From the NCBI GenBank assembly GCA_026391455.1, contig JAPLEH010000027.1, forward strand, positions 1 to 42,636: a stretch of DNA of 42,636 nucleotides. The letters run 5' to 3'. This document shows, piece after piece, positions 1,014 to 42,499 of the stretch (the stretch's first letter is position 1; the number at the start of each line of letters is the position of its first letter). Source of the stretch: Bacteroidota bacterium (GTDB taxonomy: Bacteria > Bacteroidota > Bacteroidia > Chitinophagales > Chitinophagaceae). Under the pieces are notes generated by a model. It was not told where the DNA came from, ran no database searches, and was given only the letters and a program-made list of their open reading frames with translations. The position numbers and the translations under genes are program-made.

Positions 1014-1048
1014 AATTCTAAATTCATAATTTTTAATTCTTAATTCTT
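1014..1048. repeat. 7-bp-period array (unit AATTCTN), five units
   Basis: Five consecutive heptamers read AATTCTA, AATTCAT, AATTTTT, AATTCTT, AATTCTT on the plus strand. The array ends exactly at the stop codon of the minus-strand gene at 1048. Similar heptamer arrays lie at 27760 and 32675. Confidence 0.75.
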
Positions 1049-2451
1049 TACTCCAGCCCAATCTCGAAATGCTGCTCCGGTATTTCCACATCCACAAATC
1101 CTTTTTTAATCAGTCGTTTTTTGAAATCCTGCTGCACTTCGTATTCACCATGTACAAGGAATAATTTCTTCACCTGATTAGGATCCTGACAGGATAGCCA
1201 CTGGCTCATATCTTCATAATCACCGTGCGCACTCATACTCCGGATACTGCCGATCTCTGCGTGTACTTCGTGCTGAATGCCATAGATGGATACTTCTTTA
1301 TCTCCATTCATCAACCGGCCGCCGAGTGAACGCGGCTCACAATAACCGGTAAACAGAATTGTGTTGCGGCTATTCTCTATATTATTACTTATATGGTGCT
1401 TCACTCTGCCTGCATCGGCCATACCACTGGCTGAAATAATGGCCATGGGCCCGTTTTGAAAGTTGAGTGCCTTGGACTGTTCCACTGTTTTGATATACCG
1501 CAGTCCTTTGAATCCGAACGGGTCGTTGTCTGTCTCCATGAGCCGTTGAATGGTTTTATTAAAATATGCAGGATAGCGTTTTACTATTTCCGTGGCTTCC
1601 ACACTCAGCGGACTGTCTACAAAATAATCAATGTCGGGCAGCCTGTTCTCCACTTCCAGTTGATTGAGGGCATATAATAATTCCTGTGTGCGTCCCACAC
1701 TGAATGCAGGCATGATCAGTTTTCCTTTTCGCTGCAGACAGGCTTTCTCGATCCAGCGGAGCAACATATCGGGTGTGGTAACGGTATGGTCATGCAGGCT
1801 GTTGCCATAGGTGGACTCCATGATGATATAATCGGCCTGCGGAAAATTCTCCGGCGATTTCAATATCGCATCCCGGTATCGGCCGAGGTCGCCACTGAAA
1901 GTGATATTAGTCCGTTTTCCATTTTCGATAACCCGCAGATGAACGGAAGCACTTCCAATAATATGACCAGCATCCGTATACATCGCCTGCACGCCCTCTG
2001 CTACGTCGAACCACTCACCGTATTGTCGCTCCAGCAAATGCTCGGTTACTTTCTCTGCATCTTCAGTCGTATACAAGGGTTTCAGGTAACTCATCCCCTC
2101 GCTGGCCCTTCGCTTATTTTTATACTTGATATCGTCTTCCTGTATTTCAGCAGAATCTTTTAACAACACCATGGTCAGATCTTTGGTAGCAGGTGTGCAG
2201 AATATCTTCCCTTTAAAACCTTCCGCCACCAGCCTTGGTATCAGCCCGCTGTGATCAATATGAGCATGCGACAGGATCATTACATCCACTTCAGCAGGGT
2301 CAAATCCAAATTCCCTGTTCAGCATATCCGTTTCCTTGCCCATGCCCTGAAACATACCGCAATCGAGCAAAATACGCGTGCCATTCTTCAATGTGAGTAA
2401 ATGTTTGGATCCGGTAACCGTACGGGCAGCCCCGTGAAATGCGATCTTCAT
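1048..2451 (-). CDS. MBL-fold beta-CASP ribonuclease family protein
   Basis: A 467-residue metallo-beta-lactamase-fold protein of the beta-CASP class (metallo-beta-lactamase, beta-CASP and RNA-specificity RMMBL segments), known for RNA endo- and 5' exonuclease activity. Zinc-ligand motif H-A-H-I-D-H is at residues 62-67, with the later Asp in FSGDLG, the MESTYGN motif, and the beta-CASP His in GRVKHH. The C-terminal VHGE segment is typical of the RMMBL part. There is no signal peptide, so it should act in the cytoplasm on RNA. It lies downstream of and codirectional with the DUF4442 gene, 49 bp apart across an 8-bp-period array. The exact substrate cannot be told from sequence. Confidence 0.88.
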   Translation of the reverse strand: MKIAFHGAARTVTGSKHLLTLKNGTRILLDCGMFQGMGKETDMLNREFGFDPAEVDVMILSHAHIDHSGLIPRLVAEGFKGKIFCTPATKDLTMVLLKDSAEIQEDDIKYKNKRRASEGMSYLKPLYTTEDAEKVTEHLLERQYGEWFDVAEGVQAMYTDAGHIIGSASVHLRVIENGKRTNITFSGDLGRYRDAILKSPENFPQADYIIMESTYGNSLHDHTVTTPDMLLRWIEKACLQRKGKLIMPAFSVGRTQELLYALNQLEVENRLPDIDYFVDSPLSVEATEIVKRYPAYFNKTIQRLMETDNDPFGFKGLRYIKTVEQSKALNFQNGPMAIISASGMADAGRVKHHISNNIENSRNTILFTGYCEPRSLGGRLMNGDKEVSIYGIQHEVHAEIGSIRSMSAHGDYEDMSQWLSCQDPNQVKKLFLVHGEYEVQQDFKKRLIKKGFVDVEIPEQHFEIGLE

Positions 2452-2460
2452 TGGTCAGTG

Positions 2461-2492
2461 TTTAATGAGATAATGTGATAATTCGATAATTG
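2461..2492. repeat. 8-bp-period array (unit GATAATKN), four units
   Basis: Consecutive octamers TTTAATGA, GATAATGT, GATAATTC, GATAATTG fill the gap between two minus-strand genes, 8 bp from the stop of the upstream one. The same octamer family occurs at 35799 and 42452. Confidence 0.7.
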
Positions 2493-2500
2493 AATACAGG

Positions 2501-2998
2501 TCAGACGGTGGTGTTACGTTTTGCTTTGAATGACCAGGTGATCACGAACTCGGCCACCACTTCTCCCGCTTCGTTTCGACCGGTGGAGCGCGCTTCCACC
2601 GTACGTGATTCACCAGTCGCTATGCACTCGTCTACGGCCTGCTGAAATTTTTCGCCATCCTCACAAGTGAAATAACTGCGGCCGGATGCTTTCTTAAAAT
2701 ATTCAGAGTTCACTTTTACCACCAGCATAGATACTGCAGGATTTCGTTTGTATATCTGCGCCATGGCCAATGCTCCGGTACTCATTTCTGCCGCCATACT
2801 CAGGCAGGCAAAATACGTGGACCGGAAAGGATTCTGTGAAAGCCATTTGTATGGCACCGACACTACACATTTTTTTTCATCCGCTTCCCGAACCCGCACA
2901 CCAGCCAACCAGGCTGCCGGCAGTTTTGTAAAAAGAAACATCCTGAATTTTACAGGATGTTTCATCAGTTTTAAAAATGATGATGCTGCTGGATTCAT
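2501..2998 (-). CDS. DUF4442 family protein (hotdog-fold thioesterase-like)
   Basis: A 165-residue protein matching the DUF4442 family, whose members have the hotdog fold and are related to acyl-CoA thioesterases such as PaaI. Visible family features are the central region around NPFRSTYFACLSMAAE, which corresponds to the hotdog helix, and a C-terminal strand ending in ITWSFK. The substrate is unknown. Its ATG overlaps the stop of the upstream thioredoxin-like gene by 4 bp (2995-2998), which indicates translational coupling. Confidence 0.8.
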   Translation of the reverse strand: MNPAASSFLKLMKHPVKFRMFLFTKLPAAWLAGVRVREADEKKCVVSVPYKWLSQNPFRSTYFACLSMAAEMSTGALAMAQIYKRNPAVSMLVVKVNSEYFKKASGRSYFTCEDGEKFQQAVDECIATGESRTVEARSTGRNEAGEVVAEFVITWSFKAKRNTTV

Positions 2999-3498: not shown

Positions 3499-3532
3499 TG
3501 GTTATGTTGTTTTAAAAATTGTGAATTATAAT

Positions 3533-5125: not shown

Positions 5126-5261
5126 AAGAAGAATTTTGGTTATAAATGTGTATTAAAAATAGGAATATCAGATGAATTTAAGAGCGCAGAAGTGGCATGG
5201 ATACTCATTTTTTTCCACCAACTGCAACGATTGTAAAGAAGAATCGTCAATTTTGGGAAAT

Positions 5262-22885: not shown

Positions 22886-23839
22886 ATGGCTGTACAACAT
22901 AAAAAACCGGCCCCGGCTGCCACGGTTCGCAATAATTATTTTCACTCCTCCCCCCCCATCGACCAGGTGGGCGTGGAAGAAAGGGCGTCCCGGTTCACCA
23001 AGCGAAGCATCAAAAAAGAATCGAAAAAGAACGGACTGCTGCTGGTGCTGAATATGATCGACCTTACCACCCTGGAAGGAAAGGATACAGACGGAAAAGT
23101 AAAACAGCTCTGCTATAAGGCCATGCACCCGCATGATGCCTATACTACTTTGACCGGTGAAGAACTTCCCACGGTGGCGGCTATCTGTGTATACCCCTCC
23201 ATGGTAAAAGTGGCGAAGAAGGCCCTGGGTGATTCAGGTATTAAAGTAGCATCGGTGGCTACCGCTTTCCCCAGTGGACAGGCCCCGGCTGACATTAAAA
23301 TCCGCGATACCAAATATGCCGTGAACGAAGGCGCTGATGAAGTGGACATGGTGATCAGTCGTGGTAAATTTCATGCAGGAGAATACAATTTTGTTTTCGA
23401 TGAGATCGCGGCCATCAAAGAAGCCTGCGGCGATGCCAGGCTGAAAGTGATCTTAGAGACCGGCGAACTCGGCACCCTCGATAAAGTGCGCCGTGCCAGT
23501 GATATTGCCATGGAAGCGGGCGCTGATTTCATCAAGACCTCCACCGGAAAGATACAACCGGCCGCTACCATGCCCGTAACACTCGTGATGCTCGAAGCCA
23601 TTCGTGATTTTTATTATAAGACCGGCAAAATGATCGGCATGAAACCGGCGGGTGGTATTTCCAAATCCAAACTGGCCCTGCATTACCTGGTAATGGTAAA
23701 AGAAGTATTGGGCGAAGACTGGCTCAACAATGAATGGTTTCGCTTCGGCGCCAGCAGCCTCGCCAACGATGTGCTGATGCAACTGGTAAAAGGCAAAACC
23801 GGATTGTACCAGGCAGCGAATTATTTTTCGGCAGACTAA
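22886..23839 (+). CDS. deoC: Deoxyribose-phosphate aldolase
   Basis: A 317-residue class I aldolase that splits 2-deoxyribose 5-phosphate into glyceraldehyde 3-phosphate and acetaldehyde. The Schiff-base lysine is Lys217 in FIKTSTGK and the second active-site lysine is Lys253 in GMKPAGGI; the EVDMVI motif (152-157) supplies the Asp. The protein is longer than the short bacterial type (about 220-260 residues) because of an N-terminal extension of about 45 residues, as in the eukaryote-like class. The adjacent aldehyde dehydrogenase could oxidise the acetaldehyde formed. Confidence 0.95.
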   Translation: MAVQHKKPAPAATVRNNYFHSSPPIDQVGVEERASRFTKRSIKKESKKNGLLLVLNMIDLTTLEGKDTDGKVKQLCYKAMHPHDAYTTLTGEELPTVAAICVYPSMVKVAKKALGDSGIKVASVATAFPSGQAPADIKIRDTKYAVNEGADEVDMVISRGKFHAGEYNFVFDEIAAIKEACGDARLKVILETGELGTLDKVRRASDIAMEAGADFIKTSTGKIQPAATMPVTLVMLEAIRDFYYKTGKMIGMKPAGGISKSKLALHYLVMVKEVLGEDWLNNEWFRFGASSLANDVLMQLVKGKTGLYQAANYFSAD

Positions 23840-23840: not shown

Positions 23841-23880
23841 ACAAATTAGAAAATGTGAGGATGTGGGAATGTGAAAATGA
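23841..23880. repeat. 8-bp-period array (unit GNRAATGT), about five units
   Basis: Octamers GAAAATGT, GAGGATGT, GGGAATGT, GAAAATGA follow two bases after the deoC stop and fill most of the deoC-ALDH gap. Confidence 0.7.
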
Positions 23881-23904: not shown

Positions 23905-25404
23905 ATGGCAATTACGAAGAAAAAGGCGGCAAAAAAAAGCAATACGGTAAAATTAAAGTTTGATACCAGCTGGACCTACGATCCTGCTCCGGAAAGTAAA
24001 AGTGCGGCTACGATTGCAAAGCAATACGATCTCTTCATCAATGGTGAATGGCAAAAGCCGCAGAGCAAAAAATATTTTGACACCATCAATCCGGCCACCG
24101 AAGAAAAACTGAGCGAAGTGGCCGAAGCCGGCGAAGCCGATGTGGACAAAGCCGTGAAAGCAGCCCGCAACGCGCATGAAAAAGTATGGAAAAAAATGCC
24201 GGCTAAAGAAAGGGCCAAATATATTTTCCGTATCGCCCGCATCATGCAGGAGAAAGCGAGAGAGCTCGCCATCATCGAATCACTCGACGGAGGCAAACCC
24301 ATCCGCGAGAGCCGCGACTTCGATATACCCACCGCCTCCAATCATTTCTTTTATTATGCCGGATGGGCCGATAAACTCGAGTATGCATTTCCCAACCGGC
24401 AAACCGCTCCATTGGGTGTGGCCGCACAGATCATACCCTGGAATTTTCCATTGCTGATGGCAGCCTGGAAAATCGCACCCGCCATTGCCACCGGTAATAC
24501 CGTGGTGCTGAAATCCGCAGAGACCACTCCCCTCACCGCGTATAAATTAGCAGAGATCATTCGCGAAGCCGATCTGCCTCCCGGTGTGGTGAATATCATT
24601 TCAGGGGCGGGTGCCACCGGCGCTGCTATGGTGAATCATCCGGATGTAAACAAGATTGCATTCACCGGCTCCACCGATGTGGGCAAGATCATTCAACGGG
24701 CCATTGCCGGTACTAATAAAAAAGTAACACTCGAACTCGGTGGCAAAGCCGCCAATATCATTTTTGAAGATGCGCCCATCGACCAGGCGGTAGAAGGTGT
24801 GATCAATGGTATCTTTTTTAATCAGGGCCATGTATGTTGCGCCGGCTCCCGTTTATATGTACAGGAATCCATAGCCAAAATAGTGATCCGTAAATTAAAA
24901 GACCGCCTCGAATCACTCATCGTGGGCGATCCGCTGGATAAGAACACCGATATTGGCGCCATCAACTCCAAAGCACAACTCGATACCATTCATAAATACA
25001 TCAGCATCGGAAAAAAAGAAGGGGCTGAAATGTACGAGAGCTCCTGCCGCATTCCCGGCAAAGGATTTTTTTGCCGCCCCACTTTATTTACCAATGTGGC
25101 ACAGAGCAACCGCATTGCCCAGGAAGAAATTTTCGGGCCGGTATTATCCGTGCTCACCTTCCGCACCGATGATGAAGTGATCGAGAAAGCTAACAACTCC
25201 CCCTATGGACTCAGCGCCGGTGTATGGACCGACAAAGGATCAAAAATTTTCAACATGACCAAACGCATGCGCGCCGGTGTGGTATGGGCCAATACCTTCA
25301 ACAAATTCGATCCCACCTCCCCCTTCGGTGGTTACAAGGAAAGTGGTTTTGGAAGAGAGGGGGGATTGCATGGGTTGTTGCCGTACGTGGAACTGCGGAG
25401 TTGA
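23905..25404 (+). CDS. Aldehyde dehydrogenase
   Basis: A 499-residue NAD(P)-dependent aldehyde dehydrogenase with every key residue: Asn180 in PWNF, the cofactor motif FTGSTDVGK (253-261), the general base Glu277 in LELGGK and the nucleophile Cys311 in NQGHVCCAGSR, then the EIFGPVLSV segment. The N-terminus has a Lys-rich extension of about 35 residues. Placement after deoC suggests that it oxidises acetaldehyde or another aldehyde from deoxyribose breakdown. The deoC gap is 65 bp. The protein end is directly followed by a 9-bp-period array. Confidence 0.93.
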   Translation: MAITKKKAAKKSNTVKLKFDTSWTYDPAPESKSAATIAKQYDLFINGEWQKPQSKKYFDTINPATEEKLSEVAEAGEADVDKAVKAARNAHEKVWKKMPAKERAKYIFRIARIMQEKARELAIIESLDGGKPIRESRDFDIPTASNHFFYYAGWADKLEYAFPNRQTAPLGVAAQIIPWNFPLLMAAWKIAPAIATGNTVVLKSAETTPLTAYKLAEIIREADLPPGVVNIISGAGATGAAMVNHPDVNKIAFTGSTDVGKIIQRAIAGTNKKVTLELGGKAANIIFEDAPIDQAVEGVINGIFFNQGHVCCAGSRLYVQESIAKIVIRKLKDRLESLIVGDPLDKNTDIGAINSKAQLDTIHKYISIGKKEGAEMYESSCRIPGKGFFCRPTLFTNVAQSNRIAQEEIFGPVLSVLTFRTDDEVIEKANNSPYGLSAGVWTDKGSKIFNMTKRMRAGVVWANTFNKFDPTSPFGGYKESGFGREGGLHGLLPYVELRS

Positions 25405-25501
25405 AGAAGTGACATAGGTTACATAGGTTGCATAGGTTGAAGAAGTTGCATAGGTTACATAGGTTGAAGAGGTTTCAGAAGTTAGAGAAGTTTAATAGTT
25501 T
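25403..25501. repeat. 9-bp-period array (unit RCATAGGTT), eleven units
   Basis: Eleven nonamers, mostly variants of ACATAGGTT, GCATAGGTT and GAAGAAGTT, begin within the stop codon of the aldehyde dehydrogenase gene and run to 15 bp before the four-helix-bundle gene. The complementary word (AACCTATGN) forms the arrays at 25924 and 30331. Confidence 0.85.
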
Positions 25502-25903: not shown

Positions 25904-25923
25904 TCTGTAGCTGACAAGAAAAA

Positions 25924-25968
25924 AACTTATGAAACCTATGTCACTTATGCAACTTATGTAACAAATTA
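25924..25968. repeat. 9-bp-period array (unit AACYTATGN), five units
   Basis: Nonamers AACTTATGA, AACCTATGT, CACTTATGC, AACTTATGT, AACAAATTA begin 20 bp after the four-helix-bundle stop. They are the reverse complement of the words at 25403-25501. Confidence 0.78.
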
Positions 25969-27078: not shown

Positions 27079-27561
27079 ATGAAAAAATTATTTTCCTTAA
27101 TAGCCATTTTTGCTTCCGCTATCTGTTATGCACAGAATCCGGCATCGCCCTCGAATGCACCGGATACGGCTGGAAAAAAAGTACTGGATTCCAATTCCGT
27201 AATCGTACACAAAGATCCGCGGCTGGACCTGCTGATCAAAACACAGGCACAGATCAATGATATCACCAGTCGCGATGGCCGTCGTACCGATAAAGGCTTT
27301 CGCCTGATGATCATCAGTACCAATAGCCGGGATGAAGCACTCGCGGCTAAAACAAAGGTTTATACCTATTTCCCCGAATTGAAAGCCTATCTCTGGTATC
27401 AATCCCCCTACTTCCGCGTTAAAGCCGGCAACTTCAAAGACCGGAAAGATGCCGAAGAATTTCAGAAACGAATGAATACCTATTTCCCCAAAGGCGTTTT
27501 CATTATGAAAGATGTGATCGAAGTGAAACCGGGTAAGGAGAATGAGGAAAGCGATAAGTGA
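27079..27561 (+). CDS. Secreted SPOR-domain protein
   Basis: A 160-residue protein with a signal peptide (about 1-18, ending ICYAQ). After a low-complexity stretch the segment from about 80 to 150 resembles the SPOR fold: GFRLMIISTNSRDEA begins the first strand, then YQSPYFRVKAGNFKDRKDAEEFQ, the most characteristic part. SPOR domains bind denuded peptidoglycan glycan strands, so a cell-wall role in the periplasm is likely. The ATG at 27079 was chosen over an in-frame start at 27049 because it begins the signal peptide. Monocistronic as far as visible. Confidence 0.85.
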   Translation: MKKLFSLIAIFASAICYAQNPASPSNAPDTAGKKVLDSNSVIVHKDPRLDLLIKTQAQINDITSRDGRRTDKGFRLMIISTNSRDEALAAKTKVYTYFPELKAYLWYQSPYFRVKAGNFKDRKDAEEFQKRMNTYFPKGVFIMKDVIEVKPGKENEESDK

Positions 27562-27759
27562 TGTACGGTGTGAGATGTACGGTGTACGCGGTTTACTTTG
27601 TTTTAGAATTTAGGTTTACGGTTTTAGATTGCCCTCCATTCATAATTCTAAACCCGATAGCTATCGGGTTACGGCCTGCCTGCCATACCTATCGGCAGGT
27701 AAACCGGTAGGCAGGTTTTAGACCCGATAGCTATCGGGTTACGGTTTTAGATTGCCACC

Positions 27760-27794
27760 ATTCTACATTCTTAATTCTACATTCTTAATTCTAC
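27760..27794. repeat. 7-bp-period array (units ATTCTAC/ATTCTTA), five units
   Basis: Five heptamers alternate ATTCTAC and ATTCTTA. The array lies 50 bp ahead of the M20 peptidase start and belongs to the same word family as that at 1014-1048. Confidence 0.8.
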
Positions 27795-27844: not shown

Positions 27845-29023
27845 ATGCCCGAAAGAATAAAAGCACTCGCAAAACAATACGCACCTGAATTCATTGAGAT
27901 ACGACATCATCTGCATGCCCATCCGGAGCTGAGTTACCAGGAATTTGAAACCTCCCGCTTTGTACAGAATAAACTGACTGAATTTGGTATTCCCTTTCAG
28001 GTAATGGCCACCACGGGAGTAGTGGGATTGATCAAAGGAAAAAATCCGGATAAGCGCATTATCGCGTTGCGGGCGGATATGGATGCCTTGCCGATAAAAG
28101 AAGAGAATGAGGTGCCTTATAAATCAAAGAACGAAGGCGTAATGCATGCCTGCGGACATGATGTGCATACCACTTGTCTGCTCGGTGCTGCGAAAATATT
28201 GAACGAACTGAAAGACGAATGGGAAGGTACCGTAAAACTTGTCTTTCAGCCGGGCGAAGAAAAAAATCCCGGTGGTGCATCGCTGATGATAAAAGATGGC
28301 GTACTCGAAAATCCGCGCCCGCAGGGTATACTGGCATTGCATGTGCATACGATGATGGAAGTGGGCAAACTGAGTTTCCGTGGCGGACAGGTAATGGCCA
28401 GTGCCGATGAATTGTACGTCACCGTAAAAGGAAAAGGAGGACATGCCGCATCTCCGCATTTGGTGGTGGATCCGATCCTGATCAGTTCACACCTGGTAGT
28501 GGCATTGCAGCAGCTCATCAGCCGCAACAATAATCCGTTCAATCCTTCGGTATTATCCATATCATCATTCAACGGAGGCAATACCACCAACGTAATACCC
28601 AATGAAGTAAAACTGATGGGTACCTTCCGCGCTATGAATGAAGAGTGGCGTTTCAAAGCACATGAACTGATCACCACGCTTTGTACTAATCTCGTTACCT
28701 CCATGGGCGGCACTGTTGACCTGCATATAGATGTTGGTTATCCGTCTGTATTGAACAATGAACAACTGTCGGCGAAAGCCATGGCAAAGGCTGCGGAATA
28801 TGCGGGTGCAGACAATGTAAGCGAAACAGAATTGCGTATGGGTGCTGAGGATTTCGGTTATTATGCACAGCAGATACCCGCCTGCTTCTACCGCTTAGGC
28901 ACCATGAATAAAGAAAAAGGCATCACTGCCGGGGTGCATACCCCCGTATTCAATATCGATGAAGATGCCATAGAAGTGGGCATGGGCATGATGGCCTGGC
29001 TGGGCAGTGTGGTGGAATATTGA
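27845..29023 (+). CDS. M20 family amidohydrolase/peptidase
   Basis: A 392-residue M20D-type metalloenzyme (hippurate hydrolase, N-acyl amino acid amidohydrolase group). Metal-site residues are visible: RRADMDALP-type motif ALRADMDALP, Cys103 and His105 in HACGHDVHT, the catalytic Glu138-Glu139 in FQPGEE, and a later His in ALHVHT. The lid (dimerisation) domain covers about 180-295, with GKGGHAASPH as the marker. The C-terminal MGAEDFGYYAQ is typical. No signal peptide, so cytoplasmic. The substrate within the family cannot be chosen from sequence. Confidence 0.92.
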   Translation: MPERIKALAKQYAPEFIEIRHHLHAHPELSYQEFETSRFVQNKLTEFGIPFQVMATTGVVGLIKGKNPDKRIIALRADMDALPIKEENEVPYKSKNEGVMHACGHDVHTTCLLGAAKILNELKDEWEGTVKLVFQPGEEKNPGGASLMIKDGVLENPRPQGILALHVHTMMEVGKLSFRGGQVMASADELYVTVKGKGGHAASPHLVVDPILISSHLVVALQQLISRNNNPFNPSVLSISSFNGGNTTNVIPNEVKLMGTFRAMNEEWRFKAHELITTLCTNLVTSMGGTVDLHIDVGYPSVLNNEQLSAKAMAKAAEYAGADNVSETELRMGAEDFGYYAQQIPACFYRLGTMNKEKGITAGVHTPVFNIDEDAIEVGMGMMAWLGSVVEY

Positions 29024-30086: not shown

Positions 30087-30330
30087 CTAGAACCCGCTCT
30101 GGGTCAATGTTTCTGGGCTTTGCAAAAACTTTCCACGGACAATAATGGCTACAACCGGCAAGCTGCAAGCTGTTTACCCCTTTGGGGCAAGTAAACAGCC
30201 AGCTACCAGCCGCGAGCTATCAGCTGCGAGCACAAGGGGCAAGCGGCAAGCCAACTGCAAATTGTCAACCGCCAACTGTATTCAACCTCTTGAACCTGCC
30301 TTCGGCTACGCTCAGGCAGCAGTCCTTAAC

Positions 30331-30410
30331 AACCTATGAAACCTCTTGAACCTCTTAAACCTCTTGAACCTATTGAACCTATGCAACCTATGGAACCTCT
30401 TCAACCTTTC
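30331..30410. repeat. 9-bp-period array (unit AACCTMTKN), eight to nine units
   Basis: Consecutive nonamers such as AACCTATGA, AACCTCTTG, AACCTATTG and AACCTATGC end 14 bp before the prmC ATG. Two further units lie at 30285-30302. Same word family as 25403-25501 on the other strand. Confidence 0.88.
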
Positions 30411-32674: not shown

Positions 32675-32709
32675 AATTCAGAATTATGAATTATTAATTA
32701 TGAATTATT
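32675..32709. repeat. 7-bp-period array (units AATTATG/AATTATT), five units
   Basis: Heptamers AATTCAG, AATTATG, AATTATT, AATTATG, AATTATT in the long gap after the exbB-like gene. Confidence 0.8.
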
Positions 32710-32754
32710 CCCGTACCCGGCTGCTTCACAAATTTTCCCTGCATTATCCTTGCG

Positions 32755-32998
32755 TATTGCACAAAGCATCCCTACGGGACGCTGGCCTCTGCACGCTTAT
32801 ATGCGTGCTACCCACACAAAGCCTCGCTGAGGCTTATTGCTACCAGCGGTCGACACCATTGGGTTCCATACTCTAACAATGCTAAATTATCACTTCAAAA
32901 TACCCCTTACAGTATGCACATAGCATCCCTATGGGACAAGTGCCCCCGCTCGCTTACATGCGTGCCACCCACACAAAGCATGGCTGAGGCTTATTGCT
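32755..32998. repeat. Pair of diverged ~87-bp direct repeats
   Basis: Copy A (32755-32841) and copy B (32913-32998) share GCATCCCTA, the GCGTGC-ACCCACACAAAGC block and GGCTGAGGCTTATTGCT-like ends. Copy A has a perfect GCCTC-GCT-GAGGC hairpin that is degenerate in B. Confidence 0.75.
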
Positions 32999-33225
32999 GA
33001 CAACAGGAGCTACTATTTGGTGCTATTATTCAATAATCAGGCATACGCAAAAAGAACATCCAGGATTATCGATGTATTTGCCCCAGCGGGGCATTGCGTG
33101 GGTAACCACTGACCATAAATGGAAACCGCCTGCCAGCGGCAGGCTGCGTGCTATACGCCATGACATAACCTATCTTGAAAGGAGTAGCATGTAATTAGCT
33201 CTCCCGGAATCATTTACTGCCAACC

Positions 33226-33252: not shown

Positions 33253-33298
33253 ATAATATTTCCAGCAAACAATAAAACTGGTTCAATGGGATTCTCCA

Positions 33299-33329
33299 CT
33301 TTCAACTATCAACTTTCAACTATCCACTA
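33299..33329. repeat. 7-bp-period array (units CTTTCAA/CTATCAA), four units
   Basis: Heptamers CTTTCAA, CTATCAA, CTTTCAA, CTATCCA run into the stop codon of the minus-strand gene at 33327. Confidence 0.78.
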
Positions 33330-34271
33330 TTTCTTCTCGGTTCCCGCCTGCTTCACCATCAGCGCCTGAATTTGTTTCATGGTCATTTCCATACCATCGG
33401 GGCTTCCGTCGAGGAAGATGACGTTGCCTTTGCCATATTCTGCAAAGTTCTTGATGGCTTCGGTCCACATGCTGAATAAGATCACGTTGGTATCTAGGTT
33501 GGCTTGTTTCATTTGTTCTGCAGCTTCGGACATACCGGCAGCCACTTCTTTACGGAAGAGGGCCACACCCTGTCCGCGGAGACGGGCGGCTTCTTTCTCT
33601 GCTTCCGCTGATATTTTAATAGCATTACCATCTGCTTCGGCGGCTTTGGTCTTGGTGATGAGCAGGGCCTGTCCTTCATTCTCAGCAGCGGCTTTCAGGT
33701 TATTAGAGGCCACCACTTTACTCATGGAATCGAGGATCACTTTATCGAAGGTGATATCGTTGATCTGCAGATCTTGGAGGTGATAACCCCAGGTCTCGAG
33801 GGTATGATCGATCTCGGCTTTTACATATTCCACGATCTCTTTGCGCAGCGCGAGTATCTCTGCCTGTTTTTTAGTAGCCACAAAAGAACGGATATTTCCT
33901 TCGATGGTGCGGATGAGGGCCTGCATCAGGTCTTTATCCGCAAAGAATTTAAACGCTACTTTTTTAATCGTTTCTTCTTCGGCATTCTGTACTGAGTACA
34001 GTAACATGCTTTTGAAATATACATTGGCCTGATCGGATGTTACGGCCTGAAATTCCAGTTCCACGGAACGGTTCTGTATCGACACTTTCCGGTATACCTG
34101 TTCGATAATCGGAAATTTGAATCGCAGACCGGGGGTAGCGATGCGCTGGTATTTACCAAACATGGTAATGACACCGATATAACCCTGGTTGATGGTGAAA
34201 AGTCCGCTGAAAAAAATAAATACGATAACCAGTACCCACCAGTATTGGGATAAAAGATTGGCAAAGTCCAT
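33327..34271 (-). CDS. SPFH/Band 7 (stomatin-like) membrane protein
   Basis: A 314-residue protein with one N-terminal membrane helix (about 10-27), then the SPFH domain (about 28-190; markers NQGYIGVITMFGKYQRIATPGLRFKFP and the VQNRSVELEFQAVTSD region) and a long Ala/Glu/Lys-rich helix (about 200-260, coiled coil). SPFH proteins oligomerise into membrane-associated cages that organise microdomains or regulate membrane proteases. There is no adjacent NfeD-type gene, so the partner is unknown. It ends in a 7-bp array and a terminator. Confidence 0.9.
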   Translation of the reverse strand: MDFANLLSQYWWVLVIVFIFFSGLFTINQGYIGVITMFGKYQRIATPGLRFKFPIIEQVYRKVSIQNRSVELEFQAVTSDQANVYFKSMLLYSVQNAEEETIKKVAFKFFADKDLMQALIRTIEGNIRSFVATKKQAEILALRKEIVEYVKAEIDHTLETWGYHLQDLQINDITFDKVILDSMSKVVASNNLKAAAENEGQALLITKTKAAEADGNAIKISAEAEKEAARLRGQGVALFRKEVAAGMSEAAEQMKQANLDTNVILFSMWTEAIKNFAEYGKGNVIFLDGSPDGMEMTMKQIQALMVKQAGTEKK

Positions 34272-34309: not shown

Positions 34310-34405
34310 ATTATTGATTACTAATTAATCATTATTATCATAAGTGAACAGAAAATCACTGTATTGACAATCACACCAATAATTAATAATCAGTAATTAA
34401 TAATA
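34310..34405. repeat. Two short 7-bp-period arrays of ATTATTN/AATAATN type
   Basis: Heptamers ATTATTG, ATTACTA, ATTAATC, ATTATTA (34310-34337) and AATAATT, AATAATC, AGTAATT, AATAATA (34378-34405) lie between pepT and the stomatin-like gene. AT-rich composition makes the period less certain here. Confidence 0.5.
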
Positions 34406-34430: not shown

Positions 34431-35681
34431 TCACACTGCCTTTTCTTCCCATATCTGTGCCAGGTGTACCATCATCTGTACAGCTTTGTTCATATCCTGT
34501 ACGCTGATATGTTCCAGTTTGGAATGGATGCCCTGTTCACCGGCAAAGAGGTTTGGACAGGGTAAGCCCATGAAGGAGAGCCGGCTTCCGTCGGTACCTC
34601 CCCGTATGCTTTCCATTTTGGGAGTGAGGCCCGTGCGCAGAATAGCTTCTTTGGCATATTCCACCACATGTGGATGGAGATCCAGTATCTCTTTCATGTT
34701 GCGGTATTGTTCCGTAACACGAAACTCGAAACTGGCTTTGGGGTAAGTGCGCATCCGCTCTTCGATCTGTGTGCGCAGGTAATCTTCTTTTTTGATGAGT
34801 CCGGCTGTTTCAAAATCGCGGATAATAAAATCAAGGGTGCATTTTTCAGCAATGCCCTCTACACGTACGGGATGAATAAATCCCCGTTTACCATCGGTGG
34901 ATTCGGGAGAGAGCCGGTCTTTGGGTAATGCAGCCAGTATTTCTCCGGCAATCTTGAGTGCATTGATCATTTTGCCTTTGGCATAGCCGGGATGGGAGAT
35001 CACCCCATGTATGATCACCTGTACCCCATCGGCACTGAAAGTTTCATCTTCGAGGGCACCGGCATCGCCGCTGTCGAGCGTATATCCGAAATCGGCACCC
35101 AGTTTTTTCATATCCACTTTGGCCGTTCCTTTACCCACTTCTTCATCGGGTGTGAAAAGTAATTTGATAGTCCCGTGTTTGATAGCCGGATGCGTGGTGA
35201 GATAATTTGCAAGGTCCATGATTTCTGCCACACCTGCTTTATCATCTGAGCCAAGTAAGGTGGTACCAGATGCGGTAATGATATCATTACCTATCTGTGT
35301 TTCCAGATAGGGATATTCGCTCATGCGCAATACCTGTGTGATATCATCGGGCAATACGATATCCTTGCCCTGGTAGTTGCGGTGCAGGATGGGTTTTACT
35401 CCGGTACCGCTGCAATCGGGCGCGGTATCCATATGCGCACAAAAACAGATCACTGGCACCTTCTTATCTGTATTGGAAGGAATGGTGGCATATACATACC
35501 CCCATTCATCCATATGCGCATCGGCAATACCCATGGTCTGCAATTCGGATGCAAGCAGGCGACCGAGGTCTTTTTGCTTTTCGGTTGTTGGATAGCTGTC
35601 CGAGAGCGGATCACTCTGGGTATCAATCTGTACATACCGCATGAACCGTTCTGCAGCAGTGAAAGCGTATTCGGAAAACAT
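34431..35681 (-). CDS. pepT: Peptidase T
   Basis: A 416-residue M20B tripeptidase that removes N-terminal residues from tripeptides. Metal-site residues: His83 and Asp85 in CAHMDTAPD, the bridging Asp in LLGSDDKAGVAEI, the Glu pair in FTPDEEVGKG, and the late His in GIHSKLEH. The opening RFMRYVQIDTQSDP and the end segment RGGTDGSRLSFMGLPCPNLFAG are highly characteristic. Cytoplasmic. The region just upstream of the ATG is a 7-bp-period array, so the ribosome binding site is formed within or beside repeat sequence. Confidence 0.95.
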   Translation of the reverse strand: MFSEYAFTAAERFMRYVQIDTQSDPLSDSYPTTEKQKDLGRLLASELQTMGIADAHMDEWGYVYATIPSNTDKKVPVICFCAHMDTAPDCSGTGVKPILHRNYQGKDIVLPDDITQVLRMSEYPYLETQIGNDIITASGTTLLGSDDKAGVAEIMDLANYLTTHPAIKHGTIKLLFTPDEEVGKGTAKVDMKKLGADFGYTLDSGDAGALEDETFSADGVQVIIHGVISHPGYAKGKMINALKIAGEILAALPKDRLSPESTDGKRGFIHPVRVEGIAEKCTLDFIIRDFETAGLIKKEDYLRTQIEERMRTYPKASFEFRVTEQYRNMKEILDLHPHVVEYAKEAILRTGLTPKMESIRGGTDGSRLSFMGLPCPNLFAGEQGIHSKLEHISVQDMNKAVQMMVHLAQIWEEKAV

Positions 35682-35689
35682 AGTTTTAT

Positions 35690-35757
35690 GAGCTTTGAGC
35701 TACAAGCTGCGAGCTACGAGCTTTGAGCTGCGAGCCGTCAGCTACAAGATTCAAGCA
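35690..35757. repeat. 7-bp-period array (units GAGCTAC/GAGCTTT), nine units
   Basis: Heptamers such as GAGCTTT, GAGCTAC, AAGCTGC and GAGCTGC run for about 65 bp, starting 9 bp from the pepT ATG. The same word family appears near 30151-30260. Confidence 0.85.
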
Positions 35758-35798: not shown

Positions 35799-35846
35799 CA
35801 CATTAGCACATTAGCAAATTATCACATTATCTAATTAGCTAATTAA
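35799..35846. repeat. 8-bp-period array (units CACATTAG/CTAATTAG), six units
   Basis: Octamers CACATTAG (twice), CAAATTAT, CACATTAT, CTAATTAG, CTAATTAA end directly at the FKBP stop codon (35847). On the sense strand of that gene the word is CTAATGTG. Confidence 0.85.
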
Positions 35847-36302
35847 TTATGGCATAATGATAATCGGGCTTCCGCCAACAATTTCCACAAGTTCGAGATC
35901 GAAGACAAGGTCCTGACCGGCGAGGGGGTGATTGGCATCGAGCATCACCACTTCTTCCTGAATTTCGGTAACCACTACCTGAAATTGCTGACCATTCTGA
36001 TCGCTCATACCCAATGGCATACCTACTTCAATTTCCATGTCTTGCGGAAAGCGTTCTTTCGGCATTGGAATGATCATTTCCGGATTTTTGGGGCCATATG
36101 CTTCATCCACAGGTATATGAATTGTTTTCTTCTCTCCCACTGCCATTCCGGTCACACCTTCATCAAAACCTTTGATCACCATTCCGCTGCCTACTTTAAA
36201 CTCAAGGGGTTCCCGGCCTGCGGATGAATCGAAGGTTTCTCCGGATGTCAATTTACCATGATAGTGAACTTTAATAGTATCACCACTTTTTACCTGTGCC
36301 AT
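35847..36302 (-). CDS. FKBP-type peptidyl-prolyl isomerase, SlyD-like
   Basis: A 151-residue protein with an N-terminal FKBP segment (VKVHYHGKLTSGETFDSS), an inserted flap region (about 72-125, PMPKERFPQDMEIEVG onward) and the C-terminal return to FKBP (NHPLAGQDLVFDLELVEI). This is the SlyD/FkpA-slyD architecture, combining prolyl isomerase and chaperone function in the cytoplasm. The metal-binding His-rich tail of E. coli SlyD is absent. Divergent from namZ. Confidence 0.93.
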   Translation of the reverse strand: MAQVKSGDTIKVHYHGKLTSGETFDSSAGREPLEFKVGSGMVIKGFDEGVTGMAVGEKKTIHIPVDEAYGPKNPEMIIPMPKERFPQDMEIEVGMPLGMSDQNGQQFQVVVTEIQEEVVMLDANHPLAGQDLVFDLELVEIVGGSPIIIMP

Positions 36303-38634: not shown

Positions 38635-38706
38635 ACAGAATTTACTCACACTTAGCTTTTTCACCATTGAAAGGTAGCTGTATTTGACACACAGCGTGGG
38701 ATTCAT

Positions 38707-38714
38707 TAATTTTA
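38707..38714 (+). promoter_or_regulatory. Possible promoter of the sensor kinase gene
   Basis: TAATTTTA (one mismatch to TAnnTTTG) lies 20 bp after TTG at 38684-38686, the normal -33/-7 spacing. It ends 3 bp before the ATG, implying a leaderless transcript if used. Confidence 0.4.
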
Positions 38715-38717
38715 ACC

Positions 38718-41700
38718 ATGCGCTTCCGGCTCCTGCTCCTTCTTTGCTCACTGTTATGTATAACCGCTTTTTCACAGGGTGGTAAATTCAGTTTTGTCAA
38801 TTACAACACGTCACAGGGGTTGCCGGATAACAATATACAGTCACTTAAACAGGATAGCCGTGGTTTTCTCTGGGTAGGTACCCTGGAGGGGCTCAGCCGT
38901 TTCGATGGCAAAACATTCAAGAACTATTTTGCCGGCAAATCCGACACGGTGGTAAAAGCCAATGATTTCAGCAATATCTATGAATATAAACCGGGACACC
39001 TGGTGATGAACAATTACACACGGGTGATCTGTTTTAATACTTTCACCGAAAAATTTTACCTGCCCGATTTCCCGGCCAAAAACAATATTTCAATCCGGCG
39101 AACGCCCGGACAAAAAGGGTTTTACTTAATTTCCGTCAACAAAGCCTATATACTCGATGAAGGATTGCGTATCACAGACAGTATTTATAGCCCCCCGGTG
39201 TCGAATCTCAACGTACACCTGGGCCTAGTCTACCTGGTCGGCCGCAAGGAAATACTGGTGCAGTACGGCGTGGATTTTTTCCTGTACACACCTGCCACCC
39301 GCCATTTTGAAAAGATACCCGTACAAATCAAAAACACCAACAATTCATTTGCCTTTTTTCGCTATTACGATCCGGAAAAACAGGAATTATATTTCAGCGA
39401 TTATTTGCTCGGGCTCTACCGTTATTCGCTGGTGACCCGGATAACCGAAAATCCGGTAAGAGCTGCTGACGGTTCCCTTTATGTGAGCAGTTTTGTATAT
39501 GAGGTGGTAAAACAACGGGATGGTTCGCTATGGTTTCTCACCGAATATGGAATCAATATCATAGATCCGGGGGGTACTACTGTAAATAAAATCCAAACGA
39601 TACCCGGCAAAAACAATTCGCTGATCAGCAATGTTTGTTTTACGAGTTGTACCGACAGGGAAAATAATTTCTGGATCGGCACCACGAATGGTATCAGTAA
39701 ATTAAGTGCCAGTTCACAAATGATGCGAAGCTGGTCAGAAGGTTTTGCCACCAGTCTTACCGGAGGTCTTATGAGTGTGGTGAAAGGCCCCGATGATATG
39801 ATCTATGCCTCGGTGTATTTTGGCAAAGCCTACCAGCTCAATCCTGCAACCGGTAAAACCACCGAATGGAACCATCCGCTGAATAAATACAACTGGAATC
39901 TGTTTGTTCGGGGCAATGAAATTATCCGCACCGGTACCGGCAATGAATTACTCAGTTACAACACAGCCACCGGCCAGTTGAAAGTGCTTGACTTCCTGAA
40001 ACCTTATTATCCCGATGTGGAACTCGTAGTTATGGGTTTTGTACATAGCAATGGTGATGAATGGTATAGTGCCAACCGCGGTGGAGGATTTGTGCGAAAG
40101 CTTGCAGGCACCAATACCTATAAAACCTATCGCAAAGATGATGGCATTCATCATTTCAGCAATGGCTATTATACGAGTCATACGGAATCACCAAACGGGG
40201 ACCTCTGGTTCGGCGTAAACAAAACTTCCTATTTACTCCACTGGATCGCAGCTACCGGCAAATTTGAAGAGATTGATTTTGCCACCACTTCAGGTACACA
40301 AAACAGGGTCTTTACCGGTATCAACGCCGTTGCACATGATGCACAGGGTAATATTTGGGTGGCATTCAACGGCGCGGGGCTGGTAAAATACATGCCTGCC
40401 ACCCGCAGTTCTGTTATCTACACCATCAATGACGGCCTGCCAACGAATTTTATCAGCGGACTCGTGTTTGACAATAACAACCGCTTATGGCTGAATACCT
40501 TCAAAGGACTCAGTTGTTTTCTCGTGAAAGAAAACAAATTCGTAGTCTTTAAAAAAGAAGAAGGATTGCCCGATGATTATTTTTCTGACTACTGCATTTA
40601 CTTCGACAAAGAAAAAAATGAGTTATGGACCGGGTCAAACAGTGCACTCATTGCACTCAACCCCGATGAGATACTCAAGATCAGCCGGGAAGGATTCCCT
40701 GTATATGTAGATGAGATCTATATCAACAGTATCCGGTACAGAGATACATTGCAAAACGGATTATCGCTCGGCGCCGGAGAAAATAACCTGCAATTCCATT
40801 TTACAGGTGTGGACCTGAGCAAAGGGAAGGATATTGATTACAGTTATAAACTGATCGGCGCCGATGCAGACTGGATCAACACTGGTACCAGTCAATCAGC
40901 CTCCTACAGCAACCTGAAACCGGGCCACTATACCTTCCGGGTACGAGCAAGGCACCGGGGTGATAACCGTTGGAATGATATTCAAGAACCGTTGCAATTC
41001 ACCATTGCCACTCCCTGGAATAAAACCTGGTGGTTCCGGGCCATTCTGATTCTGGTGATCAGTCTCGTACTTTGGTATATGATCCGCTCGTATTACCGGC
41101 GGCGGCTGGAGAGACAAAAAAACCTGCTGGAAAAACAACAGGCTATTGAAAAGGAACGGACACGTATTGCCACAGATATGCATGATGATTTCGGAGCTTC
41201 CCTTTCTCGGATAAAATTTTTAAGTGAAAAACTGCAACTGCTCACTCCCGCCGACCCATCCGAAAGAAACGATCTGGAGAAAATTTCGCTGTACAGCGAT
41301 GAAATGGCAGAAAAAATGAATGAGATCGTATGGGCCCTCAACCAGCGGTATGACTCACTCGGCGACCTGGTGAGCTTTTGCCGCGCCTATGCCTCTGAAT
41401 ACCTGCAGGATAAAGATATACGACTCCATTTTTCGGAAGGCGAACCCAGCGAAGAAAAGATACAGGGAGAAGTACGCCGTAATACCTTTCTGGTAATGAA
41501 AGAAGCATTACGAAATATCGTAAAACATGCGGGAGCTACAGCAGTGTCCATCCATTTTTCAAAAGGCAATGCCGGGAAAGAACTGCGCATGATCATTTCC
41601 GACAATGGTAAAGGAATTGACCTGAATAATGTGCGCCCCTTTGCCAACGGACTGGAGAATATGAAGAAACGAATGGCTGATATTAATGGTGAATTCTCCA

Positions 41701-41747
41701 TCAATACCGAAAACGGAACCCGTATTATCATCACCGTGCCGGTATAA
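38718..41747 (+). CDS. Two-component sensor kinase with beta-propeller sensor and Y_Y_Y domain
   Basis: A 1009-residue protein. The signal peptide covers about 1-20. A periplasmic sensor built of propeller repeats follows (about 25-660; units such as LPDNNIQSLKQDSRGFLWVGT, FWIGTTNGISKL and LPTNFISGLVFDNNNRLWLNT). Next are a Y_Y_Y domain (about 680-765), a transmembrane helix (about 771-790), a HisKA_3 helix with phospho-acceptor His822 in ATDMHDDFGASL, and a HATPase domain from about 925 (NIVKHAG, SDNGKGI, GLENMKKRM). It senses an external ligand and phosphorylates the regulator encoded 72 bp downstream. Classical hybrid systems of this architecture link sensing to polysaccharide use, but here no such genes are adjacent. 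Confidence 0.93.
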   Translation: MRFRLLLLLCSLLCITAFSQGGKFSFVNYNTSQGLPDNNIQSLKQDSRGFLWVGTLEGLSRFDGKTFKNYFAGKSDTVVKANDFSNIYEYKPGHLVMNNYTRVICFNTFTEKFYLPDFPAKNNISIRRTPGQKGFYLISVNKAYILDEGLRITDSIYSPPVSNLNVHLGLVYLVGRKEILVQYGVDFFLYTPATRHFEKIPVQIKNTNNSFAFFRYYDPEKQELYFSDYLLGLYRYSLVTRITENPVRAADGSLYVSSFVYEVVKQRDGSLWFLTEYGINIIDPGGTTVNKIQTIPGKNNSLISNVCFTSCTDRENNFWIGTTNGISKLSASSQMMRSWSEGFATSLTGGLMSVVKGPDDMIYASVYFGKAYQLNPATGKTTEWNHPLNKYNWNLFVRGNEIIRTGTGNELLSYNTATGQLKVLDFLKPYYPDVELVVMGFVHSNGDEWYSANRGGGFVRKLAGTNTYKTYRKDDGIHHFSNGYYTSHTESPNGDLWFGVNKTSYLLHWIAATGKFEEIDFATTSGTQNRVFTGINAVAHDAQGNIWVAFNGAGLVKYMPATRSSVIYTINDGLPTNFISGLVFDNNNRLWLNTFKGLSCFLVKENKFVVFKKEEGLPDDYFSDYCIYFDKEKNELWTGSNSALIALNPDEILKISREGFPVYVDEIYINSIRYRDTLQNGLSLGAGENNLQFHFTGVDLSKGKDIDYSYKLIGADADWINTGTSQSASYSNLKPGHYTFRVRARHRGDNRWNDIQEPLQFTIATPWNKTWWFRAILILVISLVLWYMIRSYYRRRLERQKNLLEKQQAIEKERTRIATDMHDDFGASLSRIKFLSEKLQLLTPADPSERNDLEKISLYSDEMAEKMNEIVWALNQRYDSLGDLVSFCRAYASEYLQDKDIRLHFSEGEPSEEKIQGEVRRNTFLVMKEALRNIVKHAGATAVSIHFSKGNAGKELRMIISDNGKGIDLNNVRPFANGLENMKKRMADINGEFSINTENGTRIIITVPV

Positions 41748-41819
41748 AATCAGGCAAAATGAGGTCTATACAACAAAATACCTATATGCTTGTATCCGCT
41801 TACCTGTAAATTTGTATGA

Positions 41820-42461
41820 ATGCCAGCCATCAAATTAGTCATAGTAGAAGACCTCGAGGAAGTTTCGGAAGGATTAAGTGAATTCATTCGCCGCGACCCG
41901 GCGTTGCAATTACTGAGTACATTCCGTACCGCCGAAGCGGCTTTACTCGAACTGCCCCTGCTGAAACCGGATATTGTGATCATGGATATCAACCTGCCCG
42001 GTATGACCGGCATTGAGTGCATCCGGCAAATGAAGAAGACATCCACACCTATTCAGTTCATGATGTTTACCGTATATGAAAACAATGATCAGGTATTCGA
42101 AGCACTGAAAGCAGGCGCCAGCGGTTATCTGCTAAAAAAAACACCGCCTTTGCAAATCATAGAGGCTGTAAAAGAATTGCACAATGGCGGGTCGCCCATG
42201 AGTGCGTCCATAGCCCGTAAACTGGTCACCATTTTCCAGGAACAGCAATCCGGCTCCGGCTCTGAAGCCTCGGTATTAACGCCCCGTGAAAAAGAAGTAT
42301 TAGAATACCTGGCCAAAGGCATGCTGTATAAAGAAATCGCCGATCAATTGGGCATCAGCTTTCATACCGTTCGCCAGCATATTGGAAAAATCTACGAAAA
42401 ACTCCACGTACAGAATAAAACCGAAGCGATCAATAAAGTGTATGGGAATAGGATAATTTGA
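41820..42461 (+). CDS. NarL/FixJ-type response regulator
   Basis: A 213-residue regulator. Receiver domain about 3-122 with phospho-acceptor Asp56 in DIVIMDINLPG, acidic pair Glu10-Asp11, the conserved Thr in FMMFTVYEN and Lys in YLLKKTPP. The LuxR-type helix-turn-helix spans about 148-207 (LTPREKEVLEYLAKGMLYKEIADQLGISFHTVRQHIGKIYEKL). It is the partner of the kinase just upstream (HisKA_3 kinases pair with this class). The last codons run into an 8-bp-period array. Confidence 0.95.
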   Translation: MPAIKLVIVEDLEEVSEGLSEFIRRDPALQLLSTFRTAEAALLELPLLKPDIVIMDINLPGMTGIECIRQMKKTSTPIQFMMFTVYENNDQVFEALKAGASGYLLKKTPPLQIIEAVKELHNGGSPMSASIARKLVTIFQEQQSGSGSEASVLTPREKEVLEYLAKGMLYKEIADQLGISFHTVRQHIGKIYEKLHVQNKTEAINKVYGNRII

Positions 42462-42499
42462 TAATTAAATAATTAGCTAATTTGCTAATGTGCTAATCA
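42452..42499. repeat. 8-bp-period array (units GATAATTN/GCTAATGT), six units
   Basis: Octamers GATAATTT, GATAATTA, AATAATTA, GCTAATTT, GCTAATGT, GCTAATCA start inside the last codons and stop of the response regulator gene. In the sense orientation the word is the same as at the FKBP gene end. Nothing is recognised from 42500 to the window end. Confidence 0.88.

Follow-up and report, generated by a model that had tools for sequence, protein, structure and literature searches.

Tandem arrays in the window

The 42,636-nt window, meaning the whole stretch of DNA that was analysed, carries short degenerate tandem arrays with units of 7, 8 or 9 nt in the gaps between its genes (Table 1). Arrays in the window were called with Tandem Repeats Finder (TRF), and part of them entered a separately scored set. 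All 11 arrays positioned in the initial annotation were recovered with the period given there and nearly the same coordinates, and the eight that it had placed near a stop codon do lie there. TRF added three further arrays, at 27562-27588, 32681-32708 and 34378-34404 (all period 7).

Table 1. Arrays and associated caps in the window, with strand and neighbouring genes. "Outward" refers to the direction in which the G-rich strand reads from the gene.
Feature	Position	Strand	Context
7-mer array, outward AAGAATTAAGAATT	1014..1048	-	Abuts stop of gene 1048-2451(-)
8-mer array TAATGTGA	2463..2491 (TRF 2463-2490)	+	Within 49-bp gap; 11 bp to start of 1048-2451(-), 9 bp to stop of 2501-2941(-); breaks polarity rule by nearest gene, though both flanking genes are close
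Distal cap GAATACAG	2492..2499	+	3' side of G-rich strand of array 2463..2491
8-mer array AATGTGAG	23852..23879	+	12 bp past stop at 23839; outward; under scoring threshold and left out of counts
9-mer array CATAGGTTG	25409..25492 (TRF 25413-25474)	+	Begins 4 bp past stop of 23905-25404(+); outward
9-mer array	25923..25962	-	19 bp past + stop, G-rich strand pointing back; polarity exception by nearest gene
Short 7-mer array TGTACGG	27562..27588	+	Immediately 3' of stop at 27561; outside scored set
7-mer array CATTCTA	27759..27794	-	52 bp ahead of start at 27845; outward
Cap CTGTATTC (= GAATACAG on minus strand)	30276..30283	-	Adjoins short 9-mer tract
9-mer array AACCTATGN/AACCTCTTN	30331..30407	-	16 bp ahead of called start 30424 (alternative ORF start at 30346 possible); palindrome 30296-30319 on distal side
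7-mer array AATTATG	32675..32708 (TRF 32681-32708)	+	Genes distant, 273 and 618 bp
7-mer array ACTATCA	33295..33330 (TRF 33298-33330)	-	Overlaps stop of 33327-34271(-); outward
7-mer array AATAATT	34378..34404	.	Outside scored set
7-mer array GAGCTAC	35689..35735 (TRF 35697-35735)	+	7 bp from start of 34431-35681(-); outward
8-mer array CACATTAG	35799..35845	-	1 bp from stop of 35847-36302(-); outward; same gap as 35689..35735, facing it, different family
8-mer array GATAATTT/GCTAATGT	42452..42497	+	Contains TGA stop of 41820-42461(+)

Abundance in the genome

The arrays were confirmed as real and genome-wide in a sample of 1.24 Mb of the 5.5-Mb genome (G000), comprising 723 gaps and 254 kb of gap DNA. 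These gaps held 135 degenerate arrays of period 7, 8 or 9 (59, 48 and 28, respectively), and 1-4 arrays for each of the other periods from 3 to 13. Dinucleotide-preserving shuffles of the gaps gave about one array per period, which we attribute to a single run of N present in real and shuffled sequence alike, and coding DNA scaled to equal length gave at most 1.3 per period. Shuffles were nearly array-free, and the equal array frequency in composition-matched sequence that would have spoken against the initial annotation did not occur in this genome sample.

The scored set for periods 7-9 comprised 190 arrays in gaps vs 13 in coding DNA; 174 of the 190 were flanked by genes on either side within the fetched sequence and entered the analysis, five of them with equal G and C and hence ties. 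The recurrence of words at unrelated loci, suspected from the window, was borne out by ten unit families with at least two members, which take in 171 of the 174 arrays. Additionally, the pattern ATTAGCAN, allowing up to two mismatches, had 193 matches in the whole genome and its reversed control none. Genes in the G000, G184, G228, G010, G001, G028 and G022 sets were called with our own small gene finder, so start codons are less certain than stops.

Strand polarity

The main result is that the strand of an array with more G than C mostly reads outward from the adjacent gene, regardless of the direction in which that gene is transcribed. Within 20 bp of a gene, and counting one array per gap end, this polarity was followed 56:8 at stop ends (control fraction 0.463) and 21:1 at start ends (control 0.678). 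Likewise, 130 of 169 arrays lie closer to the 5'-neighbouring ORF whatever the orientation of that ORF (49/60, 34/48, 31/41 and 16/20 by gap type), and exceptions by nearest gene numbered 39 of 174, plus the five ties. Among the 44 scored of 46 multi-array gaps, the first and last arrays faced each other in 28, ran parallel in 16 and diverged in none. Stop flanks without arrays have no such G skew (-0.02), and start flanks without arrays still have an outward G skew (+0.13).

Placement at gene ends

Arrays within 5 bp of a stop end numbered 57 vs 18.8 expected from 200 random placements (sd 4.0, maximum 30). This is far above chance, so the lack of enrichment at stop codons that would have spoken against the initial annotation did not occur here. 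Start ends had no excess (14 arrays within 5 bp vs 15.1 expected). Arrays were present in 19 of 67 convergent gaps, compared with 65 of 420 gaps between tandem genes and 13 of 128 between divergent ones.

The suggestion that the arrays place stops in all frames holds for part of them: a stop codon is present on the outward strand in 54 of the 57 stop-end arrays, although in overlapping cases it can be the gene's own, and 27 of the other 117 arrays have no stop codon in any frame. A mechanism special to 3' gene ends, also proposed from the window, gains no support: the same strand polarity holds at start ends, and 4 and 6 arrays abut start codons (within 5 bp) in G184 and G228, respectively. 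For annotation, it is relevant that arrays can be mistaken for regulatory motifs, contribute stop codons and extend over gene ends.

Orthologous gaps and other genomes

In the second half of the window, none of three orthologous gaps had an array in common with G010/G001, genomes that are only about 70-80% identical to this one in DNA. The orthologue of gene 23905-25404 in G001 is followed by a different, 7-mer array. The product of gene 41820-42461(+), whose stop lies in an array, aligns with those of G010 and G001 to residue 212/213. Of 13 array-abutting genes for which a homologue was available, 12 stop within two codons of that homologue's end. As directional tracts not shared with the compared congeners, the arrays reach the gene edge without shifting the gene end.

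The same sense of polarity was found in the other Bacteroidota G184, G228 and G028 and, by G-C skew, across a set of at least 113 named loci analysed with simple longest-ORF calls; the word ATTAGC itself had no preferred orientation at the stop ends of these loci (28:27). Polarity was weak in G001 (11:6) and only 8:4, with 3:3 at start ends, in a small unbiased sample (40 genomes fetched, of which the 34 with at least 8 kb were scanned). Presence throughout the phylum was considered and rejected: five of the 34 scanned genomes had arrays, and ATTAGCAN matched in 28 of 296 genomes, with no more than two hits in 24 of these. Single matches mean little, since the reversed control gave hits in several genomes too.

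Unit make-up, caps and palindromes

Each family has its own palette of units, from which the units of an array seem to be picked almost independently. Adjacent units were identical about as often as in random draws in each of four families (13/151 vs 10.9, 12/119 vs 10.8, 8/94 vs 6.7 and 2/47 vs 3.9), and, with units this degenerate, the arrays do not look like fresh microsatellites, as had been noted at the outset. One position of the 9-mer holds A (0.52) or C (0.42), and such a transversion pair does not resemble mutational drift; in these unit profiles the anchor letters are fixed by the search itself, and conservation is readable only at the other positions. Strings of two units common to several loci exceeded random expectation in two families (67 vs 45 and 101 vs 47). 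Copying of array blocks between loci was tried as an explanation and rejected: shared 3-unit strings numbered 3, 4, 0 and 0 vs pool nulls of 1.9, 1.3, 0.2 and 0.1, a slight excess in the first two families. Units with AGCT were counted on both strands because AGCT is its own complement. By eye, the first 8-mer unit past a stop is often TAATTAGC.

Two major families in this genome often end distally in a cap, AATACA or AACAGCC, found at the 3' flank of the G-rich strand in 41 of 72 arrays vs 10 of 72 at the 5' flank, and within 40 bp of a gene in 19 of 33 vs 0 of 33. The cap is not a common feature elsewhere: AATACA was present in 7 of the 138 distal windows of the named loci and in 2 of the 138 proximal ones, and G028, G001 and G184 had no recurrent distal word besides array words. 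Palindromes lie distal to some arrays, those of the GAGCGTAG type in 12 of 32 GGTT arrays.

Candidate explanations

The reading that we tentatively prefer is that the arrays may be footprints of end-directed DNA synthesis or repair in gaps, which would lay down 7-9-nt units with fixed polarity, replacing non-coding sequence up to the point where purifying selection on the ORF edge halts it. Such overwriting would account for the accumulation of arrays at stop codons, for a polarity common to both gene ends and independent of transcription, for orthologous gaps without arrays and for conserved protein ends. Growth might start at the gene edge and run outward, or start at the cap and run inward; composition along the arrays had no overall gradient from which to read a direction (31 positive and 48 negative of 98). 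On this reading, the majority of arrays would be by-products and not regulatory sites. The enzyme searches count against it: G000 had no RVT_1 match; Ku, the gene needed for Ku-dependent end joining, had no match in G000 or G228 and is found in 3 of 15 genomes; and neither Y1 transposase nor Y-family polymerase genes had a clear relation to arrays.

It is possible, if rather unlikely, that the arrays are instead polar sets of binding sites for DNA- or RNA-binding proteins, insulating genes or ending transcripts and kept by selection. The motif-like degeneracy of nearly independent units is consistent with this, as are the enrichment at stops and in convergent gaps (19/67) and the report that in Xanthomonas G4-forming repeats coincide with transcript starts or stops more often than control repeats do (PMC4692102). 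However, about ten motifs with three spacings would need many factors of one polarity, no array was common to the three orthologous gaps, and array-free stop flanks lack the skew. Furthermore, the arrays in sense RNA would be rich in G at 3' ends and in C at 5' ends, so one role at the RNA level could not account for both.

Ordinary slippage is unlikely as well. Short duplications would expand at 7-9 bp through the polymerase footprint and then decay, selection setting position and polarity. According to Mrazek et al. 2007, as cited in PMC4679880 and PMC4692102, one survey found heptamers to be the most frequent of these repeats in most genomes, and a polymerase contact of 7 nt was put forward; additionally, unit identity declines slightly with lag here (0.81 to 0.74 for 9-mers). 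Slippage does not account for the same families at unrelated loci and offers no evident reason for polarity at both gene ends, and the excess of alike neighbouring units that it should leave was not found. Recent slippage, hairpins and inverted-repeat ends are all made less likely by adjacent units being no more alike than random, together with the unpaired state of facing arrays described below.

An unrecognised telomerase-like polymerase that heals intergenic breaks by adding 7-9-nt G-richer units to 3' ends is a doubtful candidate; the arrays would then be internal telomere-like scars and the cap the template run-off end. Telomerases and DRT-type systems encode a reverse transcriptase, and G000 had no RVT_1 match, although a divergent or unassembled gene would escape this search.

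More improbable still are mobile or foldback elements with arrays as their inverted ends, or REP-like intercistronic hairpins. Facing arrays in 28 of 44 scored gaps and the distal palindromes could point this way, and in G001, G184 and G228 (three pairs each) true pairs bound better than swapped ones (p 0.17-0.32). Only 6 of the 28 facing pairs were of one family, however (3.8 expected, p=0.16), and some gaps hold barely more than the two arrays. In G000 (27 pairs, p=0.5) and G028 (6 pairs, p=0.53) pairing was no better than with swapped arrays, so the complementary inverted ends of MITEs, foldback elements or hairpins are lacking there, and a hairpin or terminal inverted repeat was rejected. 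Y1 transposase genes had no clear relation to arrays. Finally, it is highly improbable that stop codons in arrays merely make ORFs seem to end inside them, frequent as these codons are in stop-end arrays (54/57), since in 12 of 13 cases the homologues stop at the same point, and enrichment also holds for arrays that begin at -1 to +4 bp relative to the stop (16 vs 5.3 expected).

Relation to known repeat systems

Cyanobacterial STRR are families of short tandem heptamers. Telomerase and DRT10 likewise synthesise short tandem repeats (PMC12632851), and the strand polarity here may be likened, in our own judgement, to G-rich telomere ends. Unlike the products described in that source, the arrays are internal to chromosomal gaps, in a genome with no RVT_1 match. 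As with REP/RAYT palindromes (PMC3733652), palindromes lie among the arrays, but those next to the Y1 transposase gene of the C9 tiles are other palindromes, and the arrays do not adjoin that gene.

The TAACTGA direct repeats are intergenic heptamers that occur in five Bacteroidetes too (MacGregor 2015, PMC4679880), and one array of this genome (C23 26511) contains TAACTGA words. Those repeats have one exact unit and lie, in their main genome, mostly just upstream of start codons (PMC4679880), whereas the arrays here have many degenerate units, are enriched at stops and have no excess at start ends.

The closest likeness is to the G-rich heptamers GGGAATC and GGGGA(C/T)T of Xanthomonas and Nostoc, for which Rehm et al. 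2015 (PMC4692102) described the same polarity: they lie on the non-coding strand upstream and the coding strand downstream of ORFs and overlap stop codons. Both sets consist of short tandem units mostly in gaps, overlap stop codons, are scarce between divergent genes and include facing pairs (in xanthomonads for the published set). Both also lie nearer the 5'-neighbouring ORF regardless of its orientation (averages of 28 and 160 nt in Rehm et al., medians of 32 and 185 here). Of the published repeats 83% were common to two species, vs 0/3 gaps here, but the congeners compared here are more distant. The arrays differ in having many families and periods of 7, 8 and 9, mostly without G-tracts; the commonest units lack GGG and a few, such as AAGTCGGG, contain it. 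Judged from unit sequence, they are thus not of the G-tract, quadruplex-capable kind, and quadruplex formation is unlikely as a general reason for the polarity.

The expectation that such arrays would be new therefore needs to be narrowed: earlier publications on other bacteria already cover heptamer arrays in gaps, their proximity to stop codons and this polarity (PMC4692102, PMC4679880), and what this genome adds is many families mostly without G-tracts, the periods 7, 8 and 9 and the distal caps. The pattern was known earlier for one repeat in two other bacterial groups. A polarity blind to transcription, present in unrelated bacterial groups and in many families, points to a common DNA process shaping gaps.

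Abundance of arrays in intergenic gaps

All 11 arrays to which the initial annotation had assigned positions were present in the window with the periods it gave. Chance and generality were assessed in a 1.24-Mb sample of the source genome (G000), window included, in which 900 genes were called with a simple coding model. A periodicity scan of 254 kb of gap sequence (723 gaps, each 30 bp or longer) yielded 59, 48 and 28 degenerate segments with periods 7, 8 and 9, respectively, and 1-4 segments at each other period from 3 to 13; the high counts at periods 14, 16 and 18 are multiples of 7, 8 and 9. That array frequency exceeds chance was borne out, with about one segment per period (up to 15) after shuffling of the gaps, and coding DNA scaled to equal length gave at most 1.3. 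Lowering the threshold brought the number of period 7-9 arrays in gaps to 190, with 13 in coding DNA. Arrays took up approximately 3.6% of gap DNA.

Position and strand polarity

The proposed enrichment near stop codons also held across the sample: 57 arrays lay within 5 bp of stop ends, against 18.8 ± 4.0 expected from 200 random placements of arrays within their own gaps. Start ends showed no excess under the same null and distance (14 vs 15.1 expected). Among gaps of at least 60 bp, arrays were found most often in convergent ones (19/67), followed by tandem (65/420) and divergent gaps (13/128). In two other genomes, arrays within 5 bp of stop and start ends numbered 6 and 4 (G184) and 3 and 6 (G228).

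The G-richer array strand mostly points away from the nearest gene (outward). With one array counted per gap end and array-free gaps as controls, arrays within 20 bp in G000 were 56 outward, 8 inward and 1 tied at stop ends (control fraction 0.463) and 21:1 outward to inward at start ends (control 0.678). All 174 G000 arrays gave 79:28 at stop and 51:11 at start ends, with 5 ties. Families clustered by unit, with G content unused, were similarly consistent, with orientation majorities of 36:7, 27:4, 21:11, 16:1, 12:1, 11:1, 8:4, 4:0, 3:1 and 2:1; choosing the sign separately for each family tilts these ratios towards the majority. In G000 gaps with multiple arrays, the first and last faced each other in 28 of 44 cases, shared a direction in 16 and pointed apart in none.

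Outward-to-inward counts elsewhere were 12:2 (G184), 12:0 (G228), 20:2 (G028), 11:6 (G001), 1:0 (G010) and 1:1 (G022). Scored by G-C skew, 113 loci among the matches listed, mostly Bacteroidota as judged from 80 of the 113 names, gave 98:24 at stop and 81:26 at start ends, with 16 ties; an unbiased 34-genome sample gave 5:1 and 3:3. The word ATTAGCA scored alone in the 113 loci gave 32:9 at start and 28:27 at stop ends. By eye, this core occurs there in both orientations and the skew is carried by the degenerate positions.

Anatomy of units and caps

Variation among units is confined to restricted sets. In the 9-mer, whose anchor letters ([AG]GTT) were set by the search itself so that only the remaining positions are informative on conservation, A accounts for 97% at two more positions, another position is almost unconstrained, and another is split between A and C (0.52/0.42).

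A recurrent sequence was found on the distal side (away from the gene) of many G000 arrays. AATACA flanked TAAT-type arrays distally in 25/46 and proximally in 9/46, and GGTT-type arrays in 11/32 and 0/32 (background windows, 218/6,496); AACAGCC flanked TAAT-type arrays in 10/46 and 4/46 (background 25/6,496). GAGCGTAG palindromes accompanied GGTT-type arrays distally in 12/32 and proximally in 7/32 (background 1/6,496). Relative to the G-rich strand, 41 of 72 arrays had AATACA or AACAGCC on the 3' side and 10 had it on the 5' side; the corresponding numbers were 19 and 0 among the 33 arrays no more than 40 bp from a gene, and 6 and 2 among the 14 arrays against the gene-polarity rule. With these caps more often 3' than 5' of the G-rich strand, direction in the TAAT- and GGTT-type families seems to be a property of the tract itself. 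This cap pattern did not extend to the other genomes examined. In G228, CTGTCATCCTGA occurs on the distal side of 4 of 12 arrays (loci L202-L211) and seems to belong to a dispersed repeat of greater length.

Arrays and other features by location (G000, genome containing the window; G112, another genome; C, contigs; L, loci)
Location	Feature	Remark
Window 25409	9-mer array	7-mer array after the same gene in G001
Window 27650-27760 and 30296-30319	Among arrays, palindromic repeats ACCCGATAGCTATCGGGT, CTGCCTGAGCGTAGCCGAAGGCAG	Recur beside other arrays in the sample
Window 32750-33150	Large gap with repeated blocks, e.g. CACAAAGCATCCCTACGGGACGC, GCGTGCTACCCACACAAAGC	Unlike the arrays
G000 C59 55,964-56,682 (L011)	Gap of blocks: 8-mer array, AATACAGG cap, 9-mer CTTTGTGTG tract	Repeated several times
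G000 C9 70,960-71,140 (L024)	Tandem palindromes (GCTCCTAACGGAGC) adjoining a Y1 transposase (RAYT-like) gene on one side	Distinct from the arrays
G000 C32 98,859-100,267	Y1 transposase match <1 kb from Y-family DNA polymerase match	
G112 C3 218,797-220,071	Y1 transposase match <1 kb from Y-family DNA polymerase match	Genome distant from G000

History and distribution

None of three window gaps with scored arrays shared its array with the orthologous gap in G010 or G001, the closest genomes found (only approximately 70-80% DNA identity). In one of the three, G001 carries a 9-mer array of its own, and one gap that is array-free in the window holds a 7-mer array in G010. Array-abutting genes with a homologue in the fetched loci ended within 2 codons of it in 12 of 13 cases (controls 87/118): the arrays fill non-coding DNA as far as the gene edge. 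Distribution is patchy: of 296 genomes from this phylum, 28 matched one pattern, few of them richly, and 5 of 34 genome samples scanned contained arrays.

Possible mechanisms

The best fit, we infer, is a tract-building process halted at ORF edges, in which each tract would have a direction of its own. General selection on composition did not show at array-free stop flanks in G000 (outward G skew -0.02) but did at array-free start flanks (+0.13). Recent slippage is disfavoured because neighbouring units are not alike beyond random draws: adjacent identical units occurred at about random frequency in four G000 families. In these families, 3-unit strings common to different loci numbered 3, 4, 0 and 0 (random 1.9, 1.3, 0.2 and 0.1), and shared 2-unit strings were above random in two (67 vs 45 and 101 vs 47). 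Hairpins or inverted repeats do not fit in G000 and G028, judged from the pairing of facing arrays and, in G000, from their family match.

No candidate enzyme emerged among the four types searched. Reverse transcriptase (RVT_1) had no match in G000; Ku was present in 3 of 15 genomes, with no match in G000; and Y1 transposase (16/20 genomes) and Y-family polymerase (17/20) bore no clear relation to the arrays.

Comparison with known repeats

DRT10 produces tandem-repeat cDNA (PMC12632851), and MacGregor 2015 (PMC4679880) described repeats of TAACTGA from Beggiatoaceae, from Cyanobacteria and from five Bacteroidetes. A precedent for such arrays closer than these and the heptamers described next was not found in the open-access literature. 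Rehm et al. 2015 (PMC4692102) were unable to assign a function to the G-rich heptamers of Xanthomonas and Nostoc, which follow the same polarity rule as the arrays of G000.
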